In this document: positions 28,733 through 34,952 of the stretch, piece by piece
How positions within the stretch are numbered: position 1 is the first letter of the stretch
How the letters are laid out: every line of letters begins with the position of its first letter
From: an uncultured Lachnospiraceae bacterium
Lineage (GTDB): Bacteria; Bacillota; Clostridia; Lachnospirales; Lachnospiraceae
DNA: 34,952 bases
Reading direction: 5' to 3'
Assembly (NCBI GenBank): GCA_949740385.1
Contig: CATJJD010000203.1
Location: 1 to 34,952 of the forward strand
The notes under the pieces: generated by a model
What the model saw: only the letters and a program-made list of their open reading frames with translations
Told to the model about the DNA's origin: nothing
The model's database searches: none
Position numbers and translations under genes: made by a program

Positions 28733-29644
28733 TTAAAAATTCCTGACGACTCCCCCAAGAAAAACAGAAAAGCAGTACGCGCTCATCAGAACGATATAGT
28801 TTTGAACAGCCGTAATAAACGTTTCCGATTTTATCTGCTTTTTGCAGAAGCCGCTGATGTTTTTCTGTATGACCGGAAACGTCAGAAGATACAGAAGACA
28901 AACCGGGTGCAGCATTCCAAGAACTACCATGAGACAGGGCGCGAGATATGCGATATAATAGAGGCCGGCAAAGAGCGCAAGCGCGTGTTTTACCCCGATA
29001 AAGAAGGGCAGTGTAAACCGCTTTGCCTTCACGTCGGCCTCCACATCGCAGATGTTGTTGGCCAGCATGATGTTGGCGGTGAGGCATGTGGGAACAACGC
29101 ACAGCAGAAGCAGCGTGAGCAATTCAAACGGCACAACGGTGAGGGTGACCGCATCGGAGGCGAAGGTCAGCGTGAGGAGCGTTCCTTTTGGCGCATTCAT
29201 GTAGAAAAGCAGAAAGGGAATCAGCGTGCCCTGAAAAATGCCGGAGAACACTTCTCCCAGCGGAAGCCTCGAGATCGGCACCGGCCCGTAGGTGTAGCAG
29301 ACGCCGCACGCAAAGCAGAGTATGCCTGTGATAAGCACGACAGCGTCCGTACACCAGGCCAGATACAGGCCCAGTCCCGCGCTGACCGCAAACATGACAA
29401 ATATGGCAATCAGGGCAGGACGCCTCGGCAGCGGGAGCATTTCCGGGTAGTCTCTGCTGTCGATGTAGTTGTTGATGGCGGTTGTCGTCAGATCAAAAAG
29501 AAACATGGATAAGAAGAACACCGCCGTCAGGCGGGCATTGACGGGCTGTCCGGAGTAAAATAAAAATGCCAGTGTAATCAGAAAAGCGAATACACTGGTA
29601 ATTTTAGTCATAATCTCGACGTATTTAAAAAAATTTTTAATCAT
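28733..29644 (-). CDS. dmkA: UbiA-family prenyltransferase (MenA/DmkA-like)
   Basis: Asp-rich motifs 'NNYIDSRDYPE' and 'NNICDVEADVKAKRFTLP', multiple TM segments, RBS AAGGAGC. Symbol is by analogy with the Listeria EET locus. Confidence 0.82.
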   Translation of the reverse strand: MIKNFFKYVEIMTKITSVFAFLITLAFLFYSGQPVNARLTAVFFLSMFLFDLTTTAINNYIDSRDYPEMLPLPRRPALIAIFVMFAVSAGLGLYLAWCTDAVVLITGILCFACGVCYTYGPVPISRLPLGEVFSGIFQGTLIPFLLFYMNAPKGTLLTLTFASDAVTLTVVPFELLTLLLLCVVPTCLTANIMLANNICDVEADVKAKRFTLPFFIGVKHALALFAGLYYIAYLAPCLMVVLGMLHPVCLLYLLTFPVIQKNISGFCKKQIKSETFITAVQNYIVLMSAYCFSVFLGGVVRNF

Positions 29645-29692
29645 GAAAGCTCCTTTATATTTTCAGAGGTTATGAATTATTTGCCAGAAGCC

Positions 29693-29721
29693 ATTGTAGC
29701 ACCGCATTCAGAAATTTGCAA
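29693..29721 (-). promoter_or_regulatory. Promoter for the UbiA-family gene
   Basis: Reverse strand TTGCAA (29716-29721), 17 bp, extended -10 TGCTACAAT (TACAAT at 29693-29698). Confidence 0.6.
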
Positions 29722-29812
29722 TAGTACAATTTGTGAAATATGCTTATACTATAGTGAATATGGCGATGCAGGAAGATAATAACAGGAAAAGCTGTATCAG
29801 GTGAAAATGTTA

Positions 29813-29841
29813 TTGGCATTTTTACAGAAATATGATATTAT
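29813..29841 (+). promoter_or_regulatory. Promoter for the ndh2-led operon
   Basis: TTGGCA (29813-29818), 17 bp, extended -10 TGATATTAT (TATTAT at 29836-29841). Confidence 0.65.
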
Positions 29842-29915
29842 CTTCTTTCAATCTGATTTGGGGCAGAAATGAGTATTGAAACAGAAAAATATGAATAATG
29901 GAGAAGGAGAAAATC

Positions 29916-31892
29916 ATGACGAACATCGTAGTGATTGGCGCCGGCTACGCGGGCGTTCTGGCCACTAAAAAGCTTGAGAAAAAGCTCCGAAAGCAGGGGG
30001 CTGCCGGAGACACTCAGATCACACTGATCGACAGGCACCCTTACCACACGATGCTGACAGAGCTTCACGAGGTTGCGGCGTGCCGTGTAGGTGAGGAAAG
30101 TGTTAAGCTGAATCTGGAACAGATTTTTGCGGGGAGAAAAGTCAATGTTGTTCTGGATACCGTGACCGGTATTCAATTTGAGAAAAATAAGGTCGTCGGA
30201 AAGAACGGTGCGTATTCCTACGACTACCTGATTCTGGCAGCTGGTTCCAAACCGACCTATTTTGGGGTGGAGGGCGCAGAGGAACACAGCTACACACTCT
30301 GGTCCTATGATGACGCGGTGCGGCTGAGAGACCGCATTCACGACTGCTTTCGTCTTGCCGCAGACGAGACGGACGATAAGAAGCGGCGGGAGCTTCTGAC
30401 CTTCTATGTGGTGGGCGCAGGTTTCACCGGCGTTGAGATGATCGGAGAGCTGGCGGAGTACGTGCCGATTCTGTGTAAGCGGTTCCACATTAAGCGGGAA
30501 GAGGTAAAGCTTGTGGACGTGGACGGACTGTCCCGTCCGGTGCCGGTTCTCCCGGAGAAGCTCTCCGGCAGGGTGGAGCGCAGGCTCACGAAGATGGGCG
30601 TGGACGTGGTGATGAACGCCAGCGTGGTGGGCGTGGGAGAGAACTTCATCCGGTTAAAGCAGAAGGATTCGGTCAGCCAGTACGCGGCCGGCACCGTAAT
30701 CTGGACCGCCGGTATCGAGAGCGCAGAGATCACGGCGGACGCGGCAAAGGAGCTTAAGAGCGCAGGCAGAGGAAGAATCGAGGTTGATTCCTGTTTAAGA
30801 AGCGTCGATCACGAGAATGTGTATGTGATCGGTGACAATATGTTTTACACGGCTCCGGGTGAGGAGCGCCCGGTACCGCAGATGGTTGAGAATGCGGAGC
30901 ACAGCGCGGACACCGCGGCAAACAATATTGCGGCCGCAGTCACGAAAAAGGGCAGCATGGAGGAGTACAATCCGAAGTTCCACGGCATTATGGTGTGCGT
31001 GGGCGGCCGCTGGGGAACCGCAAGGGGCGGTCTGGCCAGTCACCAGATAAATTTTGTCTCGTTTTTCGCCATGTTTGCAAAGCACTTTATCAACATTATA
31101 TACTTTATACAGGTTATGGGCTGGGCGAAGGTGTGGAGCTACCTGACCCATGAGATCTTTACCATCCGAAACAGGAGAAGCTTTGTAGGAGGGCATTTCT
31201 CCAACCGGACGCCGAGCTTTCTTCTCGTGCCGCTTCGGCTGTGGCTTGGCGCGGTGTGGGTGTTTGAGGCGGTCATGAAGATCGTGGAGGGCTGGTTTGA
31301 GAAACCGATGCTTAAAGATTTCTTCGGTTATGCGGACAGCTGGTACGACTCGATTATACGAAGCTATTTCGGCCTTGCCCCGGCGGTGGATGCGACGGCA
31401 GGCGCAACCGCGGACGCCGCGGCGGCGGAAACGGCAGCAAGTGTCGGCACTCTGCTTTTAGACTGGGATTTCGGGCTGTTTGAGACCATATTCGTAAGCG
31501 GAAAAGAGCTGGCACACTCCACGCTGGCGGACTACGCATTTAAGCTGAACGTGCCGTTTGTGAACTGGTCCATCGACAATATCGTGCTGGCCAGCGACGG
31601 CATGCAGGTATTTATGCAGGTTGTCATTGTGCTGCTGGAGCTGGCAATCGGACTGGGGCTTATCGGCGGCCTGTTTACATTCCCCTGCTCGGCGGTCTCC
31701 ATCATCCTGCAGTTTATGTTCCTGACAACGACAGGACTGTATTTAAACGGTGTCTGGATGATCTTTGCAAGCACTGCACTGCTCGTCGGCGCAGGCTACA
31801 CAATCGGATTTGACTATTACGTGGGACCGTTTTTAAAGAAGCACTGGAAAAACATAAAATGGGTAAAGAGGTGGTATCTCTATAATGACTGA
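29916..31892 (+). CDS. ndh2: Type II NADH dehydrogenase with C-terminal membrane domain (EET Ndh2-like)
   Basis: FAD/NAD motifs 'IVVIGAGYAGVLA' and 'VVGAGFTGVEMIGELAEYV', 'NVYVIGDN'; C-terminal third has several TM segments (DoxX-like). ATG 29916 after GGAGAAGGAG. Confidence 0.9.
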   Translation: MTNIVVIGAGYAGVLATKKLEKKLRKQGAAGDTQITLIDRHPYHTMLTELHEVAACRVGEESVKLNLEQIFAGRKVNVVLDTVTGIQFEKNKVVGKNGAYSYDYLILAAGSKPTYFGVEGAEEHSYTLWSYDDAVRLRDRIHDCFRLAADETDDKKRRELLTFYVVGAGFTGVEMIGELAEYVPILCKRFHIKREEVKLVDVDGLSRPVPVLPEKLSGRVERRLTKMGVDVVMNASVVGVGENFIRLKQKDSVSQYAAGTVIWTAGIESAEITADAAKELKSAGRGRIEVDSCLRSVDHENVYVIGDNMFYTAPGEERPVPQMVENAEHSADTAANNIAAAVTKKGSMEEYNPKFHGIMVCVGGRWGTARGGLASHQINFVSFFAMFAKHFINIIYFIQVMGWAKVWSYLTHEIFTIRNRRSFVGGHFSNRTPSFLLVPLRLWLGAVWVFEAVMKIVEGWFEKPMLKDFFGYADSWYDSIIRSYFGLAPAVDATAGATADAAAAETAASVGTLLLDWDFGLFETIFVSGKELAHSTLADYAFKLNVPFVNWSIDNIVLASDGMQVFMQVVIVLLELAIGLGLIGGLFTFPCSAVSIILQFMFLTTTGLYLNGVWMIFASTALLVGAGYTIGFDYYVGPFLKKHWKNIKWVKRWYLYND

Positions 31893-32844
31893 TTTGTCAC
31901 GTAACTATCAAACTGCCTTTGAAAAAACGAAAGAAGAGATTGACCGGGTTCTTTTGTCGGCGCCGTCTCTGATTTGCACCTGCACCTCGCACCTGACCTT
32001 ATCCCACGGCAAATTTGTCCGCGCCAGGGCGTTGCTTGCCTGTGCGCTGGACGAGGACGGATGTATCTGCAGGGATGCGGTGGTCTTCGCCGCGGCAATC
32101 GAGCTTCTTCATCTGGCGACACTGGTCCACGACGATATTATAGACGATGCAAATCTGCGGAGAGGCATTGCGACGCTGCAGAAGCGGTTCGGAAAGAAAA
32201 CCGCCGTCATATGCGGAGATTATCTGCTGGCGGCAGCGTTAAGGGAGCTTGCACAGGTCGAGGATAAGGATAAATACAGAAATGTTGACATGCCGGACTA
32301 CGTGCAGCAGATCTGTATGGGAGAACTCAGACAGAACATGAACAACTACAACTACAGTCTGTCCATGTTTCGTTATTTAAGCATTATCAACCGAAAGACG
32401 GCGGCGCTGTTTGAGGCATCTTATTTTGCGGGAGCCATAATCAGCGAACAGGATGAGAACAGGCTTCGCCTCTACCGCAGGCTCGGCAGATACACGGGCA
32501 TTATTTTCCAGCTGACGGACGACTGCATCGACTACGAGTGCGATGCGAATACAGCCAAAAAAAACGTGCAGCTGGACTATGAGCAGGGCGTCATCACCCT
32601 CCCGGTTATCTATACCTTCAGCAGTCAGCCGGAGCTAAGAGCGCGGGCCGAGGCGAAAGAGCTCCCGACGGAGGAGCTTCTCTCGGAAGTAAAGAAGAGC
32701 GGAGGTATCGATTTCACCCATCGGACTGCCGGGCGCTATTACGGGAAAGCCAAAGCGGCATTAACGGAGCTTGGGCTTTCCCGGCAGAAGGAGGAGCTTT
32801 TAGGGGAATTGCTGGACAGGTCCTACTGCGGACTGAAAAAATAG
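31885..32844 (+). CDS. dmkB: Polyprenyl diphosphate synthase
   Basis: FARM 'LVHDDIIDDANLRRG', SARM 'QLTDDCIDYECD'; start overlaps the ndh2 stop by 8 nt. Symbol by analogy with EET loci. Confidence 0.88.
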   Translation: MTDLSRNYQTAFEKTKEEIDRVLLSAPSLICTCTSHLTLSHGKFVRARALLACALDEDGCICRDAVVFAAAIELLHLATLVHDDIIDDANLRRGIATLQKRFGKKTAVICGDYLLAAALRELAQVEDKDKYRNVDMPDYVQQICMGELRQNMNNYNYSLSMFRYLSIINRKTAALFEASYFAGAIISEQDENRLRLYRRLGRYTGIIFQLTDDCIDYECDANTAKKNVQLDYEQGVITLPVIYTFSSQPELRARAEAKELPTEELLSEVKKSGGIDFTHRTAGRYYGKAKAALTELGLSRQKEELLGELLDRSYCGLKK

Positions 32845-32922
32845 TTATTTATCCGGCCATACCGCCGGACAGCTATTAAAGATTACAAAGGTATGGTGAA
32901 AGAAAACAGGGAGAACAGCTTT

Positions 32923-34107
32923 ATGAAGAAAAGACTTGCAGTATTACTTGGGATATCGTTTATGTTGTCCGCGCTTTCGGGCTGTACGAACAGGACGGCG
33001 GATGATGTGGCCGGAATTACCGCGGACAACACAACGACGGAAAGCCAGACGCCGGATAACGGCACGGCCGGCGGCGATACGGCCGGCGGAAACAGCGAGA
33101 CGGAGAACGTCCCGGCAGACGAGGGAACGGAAGCCGACGGAACGGCCGGCAGCACACCGACGGAAGGCGCCTTAAAGACAGGCCTTGCGCTTGTGACCGG
33201 CGTGGAAAGCTCTGCTGACGCTTCCGCGGACGCGGAGGGCATTGCGCAGGCGGATGCAATGATCGCGGCAGTCACCGTTGACGCGGACGGAAAGATTGCG
33301 GAGTGCGTGATTGACTGCGCACAGACGGTTGTAACCTTTGGGGCAGACGGAAAAATCACGGCGGACCTTACGGCGGACTTCCCTACGAAGAACGAGCTGG
33401 GACGAGACTACGGCATGAATCAGGCTTCCTCCATCGGAAAAGACTGGAATGAGCAGGCGGCAGCTTTTGCGGCTTACTGCGTGGGCAAGACGGCGGATGA
33501 GGTGAAGGGTATTGCGGTTGCGGAAGGCAAGGCGGCGGACGCGGATCTTGCGGCAGGCTGCACCCTCTACATCGGCGGATTCCAGGAGGTTGTTGCGCAG
33601 GCGGTTGCCAATGCGGTTCCGATGAGCGCGCAGCCGGGCGATAAGCTTGGTCTTGGCGTTACGACAAACATTGCAAAGTCGAAGGATGCAACTGCAGACG
33701 AGAACGGTCTTGCAGAGGCTTACACTACCGTTACCGCGGTGACCGTAAATGCGGACGGCTATATCACAAGCGCAGTCATTGACGCGGTTCAGGCAGATGT
33801 GAATTTTGACGCATCCGGAAAGATTACATCCGACATCAACGCGGCGGTTGATTCCAAGAACACGCTGGGCGACAGCTACGGCATGAAGGCGGCTTCCTCC
33901 ATCGGAAAAGAGTGGAACGAGCAGGCGGCGGCATACGCGCAGTATGCGGTCGGCAAAACCGTGGATGAGGTAAACGGCACGGCAGTGACAGAGGGTGTTC
34001 CTTCTGACGCGGACCTTGCGGCTTCCGTGACGATCCATATCACGGACTTCAACACTATCATCACAAAGGCAGTAAACAGCGCAAAACAGGCAGAAAGCAT
34101 CAAATAA
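32923..34107 (+). CDS. pplA: FMN-binding-domain lipoprotein with two tandem modules (PplA-like)
   Basis: ATG 32923 after GGGAG; lipobox 'LSALSGC'; long Thr/Gly/Asp-rich linker; two homologous modules, each with SSIGK[DE]WNEQAAA and a flavinylation-like motif (DLAAGCT, DLAASVT). Confidence 0.82.
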   Translation: MKKRLAVLLGISFMLSALSGCTNRTADDVAGITADNTTTESQTPDNGTAGGDTAGGNSETENVPADEGTEADGTAGSTPTEGALKTGLALVTGVESSADASADAEGIAQADAMIAAVTVDADGKIAECVIDCAQTVVTFGADGKITADLTADFPTKNELGRDYGMNQASSIGKDWNEQAAAFAAYCVGKTADEVKGIAVAEGKAADADLAAGCTLYIGGFQEVVAQAVANAVPMSAQPGDKLGLGVTTNIAKSKDATADENGLAEAYTTVTAVTVNADGYITSAVIDAVQADVNFDASGKITSDINAAVDSKNTLGDSYGMKAASSIGKEWNEQAAAYAQYAVGKTVDEVNGTAVTEGVPSDADLAASVTIHITDFNTIITKAVNSAKQAESIK

Positions 34108-34110
34108 CGG

Positions 34111-34140
34111 GGGGAGCGCGTTACGCGCGCTCCCCTTATC
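34111..34140 (+). terminator. Hairpin between pplA-like and apbE genes (partial terminator/stabiliser)
   Basis: GGGGAGCGCG (34111-34120), loop TTACG, CGCGCTCCCC (34126-34135), then TTATCTTTC. Confidence 0.55.
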
Positions 34141-34158
34141 TTTCAAACAGGAAAAATT

Positions 34159-34952
34159 ATGAATCGAATGAAAAAAGCCGGAATTGTGATTGTCTTTGCA
34201 GTGCTGATTGCCATTGCAGTGCGGTATAATACGTCAAAGGAGCTGACGCGTTATACGGCATCCTTTTTGAATGTATTTGATACGAAGACTGATATTGTAG
34301 GGTACGGAACGAGCGAGGCGGCATTTACAGAGCAGGTGGAGCTGCTTAAGGAAAAGCTTCTGTACTACCATGAGCTCTACGATATTTACCACAATTATGA
34401 CGGTGTGAACAACATAAAAACGATCAATGACAATGCGGGGATCGGCCCGGTTGCGGTAGACCCTGAGATTATCGGACTGCTGCAGTTCTGCGTGGAGATG
34501 TACGACAGAACCGGCGGGCAGGTCAACATCGCCATGGGCAGCGTGCTTCGTGTATGGCACGAGTACCGGGAGGCGGGAAACAACAATCCTTCCTCGGCCC
34601 GCCTGCCGAAGGAGGAGGAGATCCGGGAAGCCGCGGAGCACACGGACATTGGGGAGCTCGTCATTGACGAGGCGGCGTCCACGGTCTATCTGAGGGACCC
34701 CGGGATGTCTCTGGATGTGGGAAGCATCGGCAAGGGGTATGCGCTGCAGCGGGTCGCGGAGTACGCGAGAGAGCTGGGAATGGAGCATCTGCTCCTTAGC
34801 GTGGGAGGAAATGTCTGTGCCGTCGGAGCCCGTCTGGACGGGAGCCTGTGGAGGCTCGGGGTGCAGAACCCGGACACCGAAAGCGAGGAACCGTACATCC
34901 GAAAGGTGGATCTGGCGGATTGCTGTATTGTGACAAGCGGCAATTACCAGCG
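34159..34952 (+). CDS. apbE: ApbE-family FMN transferase (FmnB-like), 3' truncated by window end; not in ORF track
   Basis: Open frame ATG 34159 to window end: N-terminal TM anchor, 'GGQVNIAMGSVLRVWHEYR', 'SLDVGSIGKGYALQRVAEY', 'LLSVGGNVCAVG', 'CCIVTSGNYQ'. Confidence 0.92.
   Translation, partial: MNRMKKAGIVIVFAVLIAIAVRYNTSKELTRYTASFLNVFDTKTDIVGYGTSEAAFTEQVELLKEKLLYYHELYDIYHNYDGVNNIKTINDNAGIGPVAVDPEIIGLLQFCVEMYDRTGGQVNIAMGSVLRVWHEYREAGNNNPSSARLPKEEEIREAAEHTDIGELVIDEAASTVYLRDPGMSLDVGSIGKGYALQRVAEYARELGMEHLLLSVGGNVCAVGARLDGSLWRLGVQNPDTESEEPYIRKVDLADCCIVTSGNYQ

Follow-up and report, generated by a model that had tools for sequence, protein, structure and literature searches.

The window (the whole stretch of DNA analysed here, 34,952 bp) spans contig C203 from end to end, in a source genome that is fragmented (3.06 Mb in 481 contigs) and about 84% complete. 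The right-hand end of the window very probably carries a locus for flavin-based extracellular electron transfer (EET) of the Listeria type, in a bacterium of the Roseburia group of Lachnospiraceae; taken as a whole, this is the best explanation of the sequence. The locus is an example of a known system and not a new one; the new points are a conserved RNA hairpin found after pplA and indications that related species power the PplA protein with another electron pump. As proposed in the first-pass annotation of this DNA, genes for a UbiA prenyltransferase (ubiA), an NDH-2 (ndh2), a polyprenyl diphosphate synthase (pps), a lipoprotein (pplA) and an ApbE flavin transferase (apbE) sit together, and all five open reading frames were confirmed at the coordinates below.

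28733..29644, minus strand: DmkA/MenA-like UbiA prenyltransferase, 303 aa (PF01040, E=6e-16)
29645..29915, no strand: divergent intergenic region with promoter-like sites on both strands (consensus scan only)
29721-29693, minus strand: promoter-like TTGCAA-17-TACAAT (consensus scan only)
29813-29841, plus strand: promoter-like TTGGCA-17-TATTAT (consensus scan only)
ORF opening at 29898, likely start 29916, end 31892, plus strand: EET-type NDH-2, FAD/NADH domains plus a C-terminal membrane domain (PF07992, E=1.5e-35)
31885..32844, plus strand: DmkB-like polyprenyl diphosphate synthase, 319 aa (PF00348, E=1e-51; HepT-type matches)
ORF opening at 32893, likely start 32923, end 34107, plus strand: PplA-like lipoprotein with two FMN-bind2-type domains (lipobox, two homologous repeats)
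33562..33564, plus strand: predicted FMN-accepting Thr of domain 1, AGCT motif, residue 224 of the long ORF (alignment column, 2kzx profile match)
34030..34032, plus strand: predicted FMN-accepting Thr of domain 2, ASVT motif, residue 380 of the long ORF (alignment column)
34109..34137, plus strand: terminator-like hairpin between pplA and apbE, 13-pair stem with 9 G-C (same position in 34/63 internal pplA junctions)
34159..34952, plus strand: FmnB-like ApbE flavin transferase, cut by the contig end (PF02424, E=6e-43)

Expected family matches were obtained for four of the five proteins (UbiA, NDH-2, the synthase and ApbE), the lipoprotein being the exception. The ubiA gene diverges from the other four, with a gap of 271 bases to the likely ndh2 start, and it has the same position and strand in the loci of relatives. 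Ribosome-binding-site spacing indicates that the true starts of ndh2 and pplA are likely those listed. An Rfam search of the window, the divergent intergenic region included, returned no known RNA. The top NCBIfam models for UbiA were 1,4-dihydroxy-2-naphthoate polyprenyltransferases, PRK13387 (E=1e-71) and PRK06080.1-4, both below cut-off. The synthase contains both DDxxD motifs (DDIID and DDCID); its gene overlaps ndh2 by 8 bases and comes after it in almost every related locus. ApbE ends at residue 264, with its C-terminal part missing, because the contig sequence runs out at 34952. Its best match among solved structures is 7esa, according to the literature the FmnB of Listeria. The truncated protein is 72% identical to the complete 361-aa ApbE of congener G014.

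A published working definition of EET loci is an NDH-2 with transmembrane helices clustered with an ApbE or FMN-binding gene (PMC8238504). The window encodes an NDH-2 with about five hydrophobic segments in its C-terminal part, beyond residue 380, and apbE is found three genes downstream. Several hallmarks of the Listeria type are also present, namely a DmkA-type UbiA and a DmkB synthase beside ndh2, a two-domain PplA lipoprotein and an FmnB/ApbE transferase. In Listeria monocytogenes the EET locus consists of dmkA, dmkB, ndh2, pplA, fmnB, eetA, eetB and fmnA (Light et al. 2018, as described in PMC8906456 and PMC9973259). The window shares with it the gene set (eetA and eetB by way of relatives), the membrane domain of NDH-2, the two-domain lipoprotein, whose flavinylation is here predicted, and the FmnB-like ApbE. 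Unlike the Listeria locus, the window has its own gene order with a divergent ubiA, eetA and eetB are not in the assembly, and the source genome gave no menD or menB above cut-off; no gene for FmnA, the ECF-T partner of EetB, was recognised beside the window genes.

The nearest related loci carry the labels Roseburia, Lachnospiraceae, Butyrivibrio and Pseudobutyrivibrio. In Roseburia, Butyrivibrio and Pseudobutyrivibrio loci (L033, L035, L037, L040 and others) a leftward ubiA is followed by rightward ndh2, pps, pplA, apbE, eetA and eetB, which is the usual order of this group and matches the window as far as the latter can be read. In L033 and L037 a guaA-like gene follows eetB, in the region beyond the window end. 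In congener G014 the five genes recur in this order, at 68-84% identity, and are followed by genes of 133 and 165 aa, which Pfam assigned to NusG_II (EetA) and PF07456 (EetB), respectively. Both genes lie directly downstream in G014, in G021 and in most relatives. Gene order is strongly conserved across 80 loci of other Clostridia genomes, and chance grouping is excluded because the same genes recur in this conserved order in most of them. Of the related Clostridia loci, 59 extend 7 kb or more beyond ndh2 on its downstream side; read in all six frames, 41 of them hold the full set of ubiA, pps, pplA, apbE, eetA and eetB, and pplA was found in 57, apbE in 57 and eetB in 46.

Several results were counted against the EET reading. 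No eetB was found nearby in 13 of these 59 loci, and an EET-type NDH-2 was found in only 3 of the 36 searched genomes of the genus. A search of the 84%-complete source genome for eetA, eetB and the remainder of apbE found none of them, recovering only the cut apbE and an unrelated Rnf-linked ApbE. The first-pass annotation had placed eetA and eetB beyond the window; this holds for G014, G021 and most relatives, but in the source genome itself the contig ends inside apbE and neither gene was recovered. All 13 other congeners searched carry eetB (13/13). The missing genes are most simply explained by sequence lost where the contig breaks off, and from its relatives the window organism may be presumed to have both. 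Two irregular loci were also noted. L032 at first seemed to be without eetA and eetB, and this was rejected on all-frame reading: an ApbE without its C-terminal part runs in frame into EetA (L032:13241-14497, 418 aa), likely by a deletion or an assembly error, and eetB is intact; the fusion was left out of the evidence. The N-terminus of the G014 NDH-2 ORF (L019:10867-13044) looks frameshifted in that assembly.

The label of a 'double FMN-binding' lipoprotein given in the first pass proved apt on the grounds of conserved Thr/Ser residues, a profile match and orthology, yet the Pfam FMN_bind model (PF04205) gave no match above cut-off in the window PplA or in nine homologues, a result that was counted against the EET reading. 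The Pfam model used in flavinylation surveys misses the PplA family. The protein has an LSGC lipobox, with the lipobox Cys at about 32983, and its predicted model is confident (pLDDT mostly >90 for residues 100-400). A profile of the PplA family matched PDB entry 2kzx (E=8e-7), with AGCT aligned to SGAT. A PDB fold search with the PplA model gave no significant match, which also counted against EET, and a profile-profile comparison of PplA with RnfG gave a probability of 5.9. Of 138 PplA domains, 102 have Thr and 35 have Ser in the predicted flavinylation column (Thr/Ser in 137/138), and FMN is predicted to be carried on Thr224 and Thr380 in the window protein. Listeria PplA is flavinylated on Thr143 and Thr265, with Ser tolerated as a replacement (PMC8906456). 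FMN-bind2 proteins have paired domains of about 150 aa with Thr/Ser at the flavinylation position (PMC10979944), as in PplA here; their motif is [S/T]GA[S/T], compared with AGCT and ASVT in the window. Two domain copies are present in 66 PplA proteins, one copy in 2 and four copies in 1; the last (L062:11954-14020) is made up of two near-identical pairs of FMN-bind2-type domains.

Only residues 3-365 of the window NDH-2 align to a solved NDH-2, that of C. thermarum (4nwz, E=2e-55), the remainder forming the extra membrane domain. Single homologues of this domain (n=24) gave weak recurring matches to the related families MauE (20/24), DoxX (12/24) and DoxD (8/24). In Pfam naming, DoxD is the small subunit of thiosulfate:quinone oxidoreductase, and a quinone-linked role for the membrane domain is therefore plausible. 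A PDB fold search with the model of this domain, which is of intermediate quality (pLDDT 73), returned nothing significant, and this too was counted against the EET reading. The quinone site of ordinary NDH-2 enzymes is AQxAxQ, with the variants AQxAxR and APxAxQ (PMC5299459). At this site, by alignment to 4nwz, the window enzyme has PQMVENAEHS; PQxVEN[AC]ExS occurs in 75 of 80 EET NDH-2s and the canonical AQxAxQ, the form that was tallied, in none of the 80.

The supply of quinone was considered at the genome level. No menD above cut-off was found in 18 genomes (the source genome and 17 congeners, including G014) and no menB above cut-off in 16 (the source genome and 15 congeners, including G014); mqnA was absent from the source genome, with one partial match (G016) among congeners. 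The missing menD, menB and mqnA in the source genome were also counted against the EET reading, and they are the reason for the view that the quinone head group is probably scavenged, as DHNA from other microbes. The first-pass annotation had pointed to the head-group pathway as a check on its proposal; the pathway did not appear, but its absence does not refute EET because Lactiplantibacillus plantarum performs EET with imported DHNA (PMC8837199), and the account shifts from making the head group to scavenging it. The FLEET locus of L. plantarum (PMC8837199) has a ndh2/pplA core and relies on outside DHNA, as is probable here; that organism belongs to a distant lineage and was likened to the window from its published description. 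UbiD-type and second UbiA-type genes flank some EET loci: in L034 (16118-18690) Pfam confirmed them, and in L058 (14223-17444) and the left flank of L062 they were recognised by sequence similarity. This is a hint that these species may take another route to quinone.

The first-pass proposal that electrons pass from NADH by way of a dedicated (demethyl)menaquinone to a flavinylated lipoprotein is supported by the agreement with the published definition and by the closest relatives, which run on into eetA and eetB. In the proposed chain, a dedicated demethylmenaquinone would be built by UbiA (DmkA) from a polyprenyl chain, the product of the DmkB synthase, and a naphthoate head group that is probably DHNA obtained from neighbouring microbes. 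NDH-2 would oxidise NADH and reduce this quinone, and its DoxX-like membrane domain would probably help to carry electrons across the membrane or to receive the quinone. EetB, the FAD exporter for flavinylation of Listeria PplA (PMC9973259), would supply FAD, and ApbE would attach FMN to Thr224 and Thr380 of PplA. PplA may then hand electrons on outside the cell, to acceptors such as Fe(III) or flavins, and this disposal of electrons would let fermentation regenerate NAD+.

Two other uses of the same genes were weighed against this chain. The locus might power flavinylated extracellular reductases or surface redox chemistry, such as a fumarate-reductase-like enzyme or iron assimilation, and not metal or electrode respiration, with PplA as one outlet of a shared quinone chain. 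This is unlikely: the Listeria EET chain also feeds flavinylated reductases, according to work cited in PMC8238504, and no terminal acceptor is encoded at the locus, but the cluster contains no FrdA-like or iron-transport gene, and pplA lies beside ndh2 and pps in nearly every related locus, suggesting that PplA is the main partner. Somewhat less probable again is that the genes form an NADH sink that depends on quinone and lacks a dedicated acceptor outside the cell; NDH-2 and scavenged naphthoquinones would then shuttle electrons directly, with PplA as an accessory. The source genome without menD, menB or mqnA is in keeping with such a sink, as is the requirement of L. plantarum for Ndh2 and only conditionally for PplA (PMC8837199); against it, ndh2 is accompanied by pplA and by apbE in 57/59 loci each, and the FMN-accepting residues are almost invariant. 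Under the favoured reading, in which PplA is the flavinylated outlet of the chain, the lack of detectable menD and menB implies a probable dependence on the quinone precursors of other microbes, and NADH disposal becomes a testable question of cross-feeding.

The hairpin after pplA was recovered in a search of the 100 bases past every gene in the 80 loci. A terminator-like hairpin lies 3' of pplA at 34 of 63 internal junctions, compared with 0.2 expected from dinucleotide shuffles, and at 2 of about 290 internal junctions after ndh2, pps, ubiA, apbE, eetA and eetB combined. The Roseburia/Butyrivibrio-type group supplies about 22 of the 34 hairpin loci, so that not every locus counts as an independent case; hairpins with different sequences also occur in unrelated Clostridia. 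The hairpin probably lowers apbE transcription, so that pplA mRNA would exceed apbE mRNA and the substrate would outnumber the enzyme. A literature search, a weak negative, found no paper combining pplA, apbE or EET with a terminator at this junction. Together with the PQxVENxExS quinone-site motif, the pplA-apbE hairpin could help to recognise such loci elsewhere.

An rnf operon is also present in the source genome; its RnfG has an FMN_bind domain, and a second apbE lies on the rnf contig (C138). An RnfG-type FMN_bind gene is present in G014. An alternative is that the Rnf complex (RnfG/RnfD) is the main client of the window ApbE, which would sit at this locus incidentally. Such an assignment is highly improbable: the rnf contig has an apbE of its own, whose product is only 33% identical to the EET-type ApbE, whereas the window ApbE is of the EET type and is kept beside pplA. 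Congeners without an EET-type NDH-2 have pplA immediately adjacent to rnf genes, in most cases together with apbE, in the following loci.

L025 (G007), L023 (G012), L024 (G016), L020 (G027), L021 (G020) and L027 (G023)

This arrangement suggests, as a lead, that the electron donor may have switched in these congeners, with Rnf in place of NDH-2 feeding the PplA surface flavoprotein. It is possible, and put forward tentatively, that within one genus the same ApbE-flavinylated PplA outlet would draw on two sources, NDH-2 and demethylmenaquinone (the window, G014 and G021) or the ferredoxin-linked Rnf (the six congeners), with a conserved partial terminator after pplA setting the ratio of carrier to transferase. 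In enterococci, a PplA homologue, Cad (the cAD1 pheromone precursor), is coupled to apbE, NDH-2 and prenyltransferases (PMC7074142), as here. The cad-apbE cluster was reported there only where rnf is absent, a statement that fails in this case because the window genome and G014 carry both.

To the left of the EET locus, positions 3-28601 of the window encode a GH43, two GH3, a GH39 fused to an AraC-type regulator, BD-FAE/carboxyl esterases, ABC sugar transporters and AraC regulators, a gene content fitting xylan-type use. The first-pass annotation had described a polysaccharide-utilisation region beside the locus. These genes are indeed present, but a functional link between them and EET was rejected: Roseburia, Butyrivibrio and Pseudobutyrivibrio loci have left-hand neighbours unlike those of the window, and no such link is indicated because the neighbourhood is not kept in relatives. 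The xylan-type neighbours thus appear incidental to the EET locus, which itself places flavin-based EET in a Roseburia-group gut bacterium that is probably fibre-degrading.
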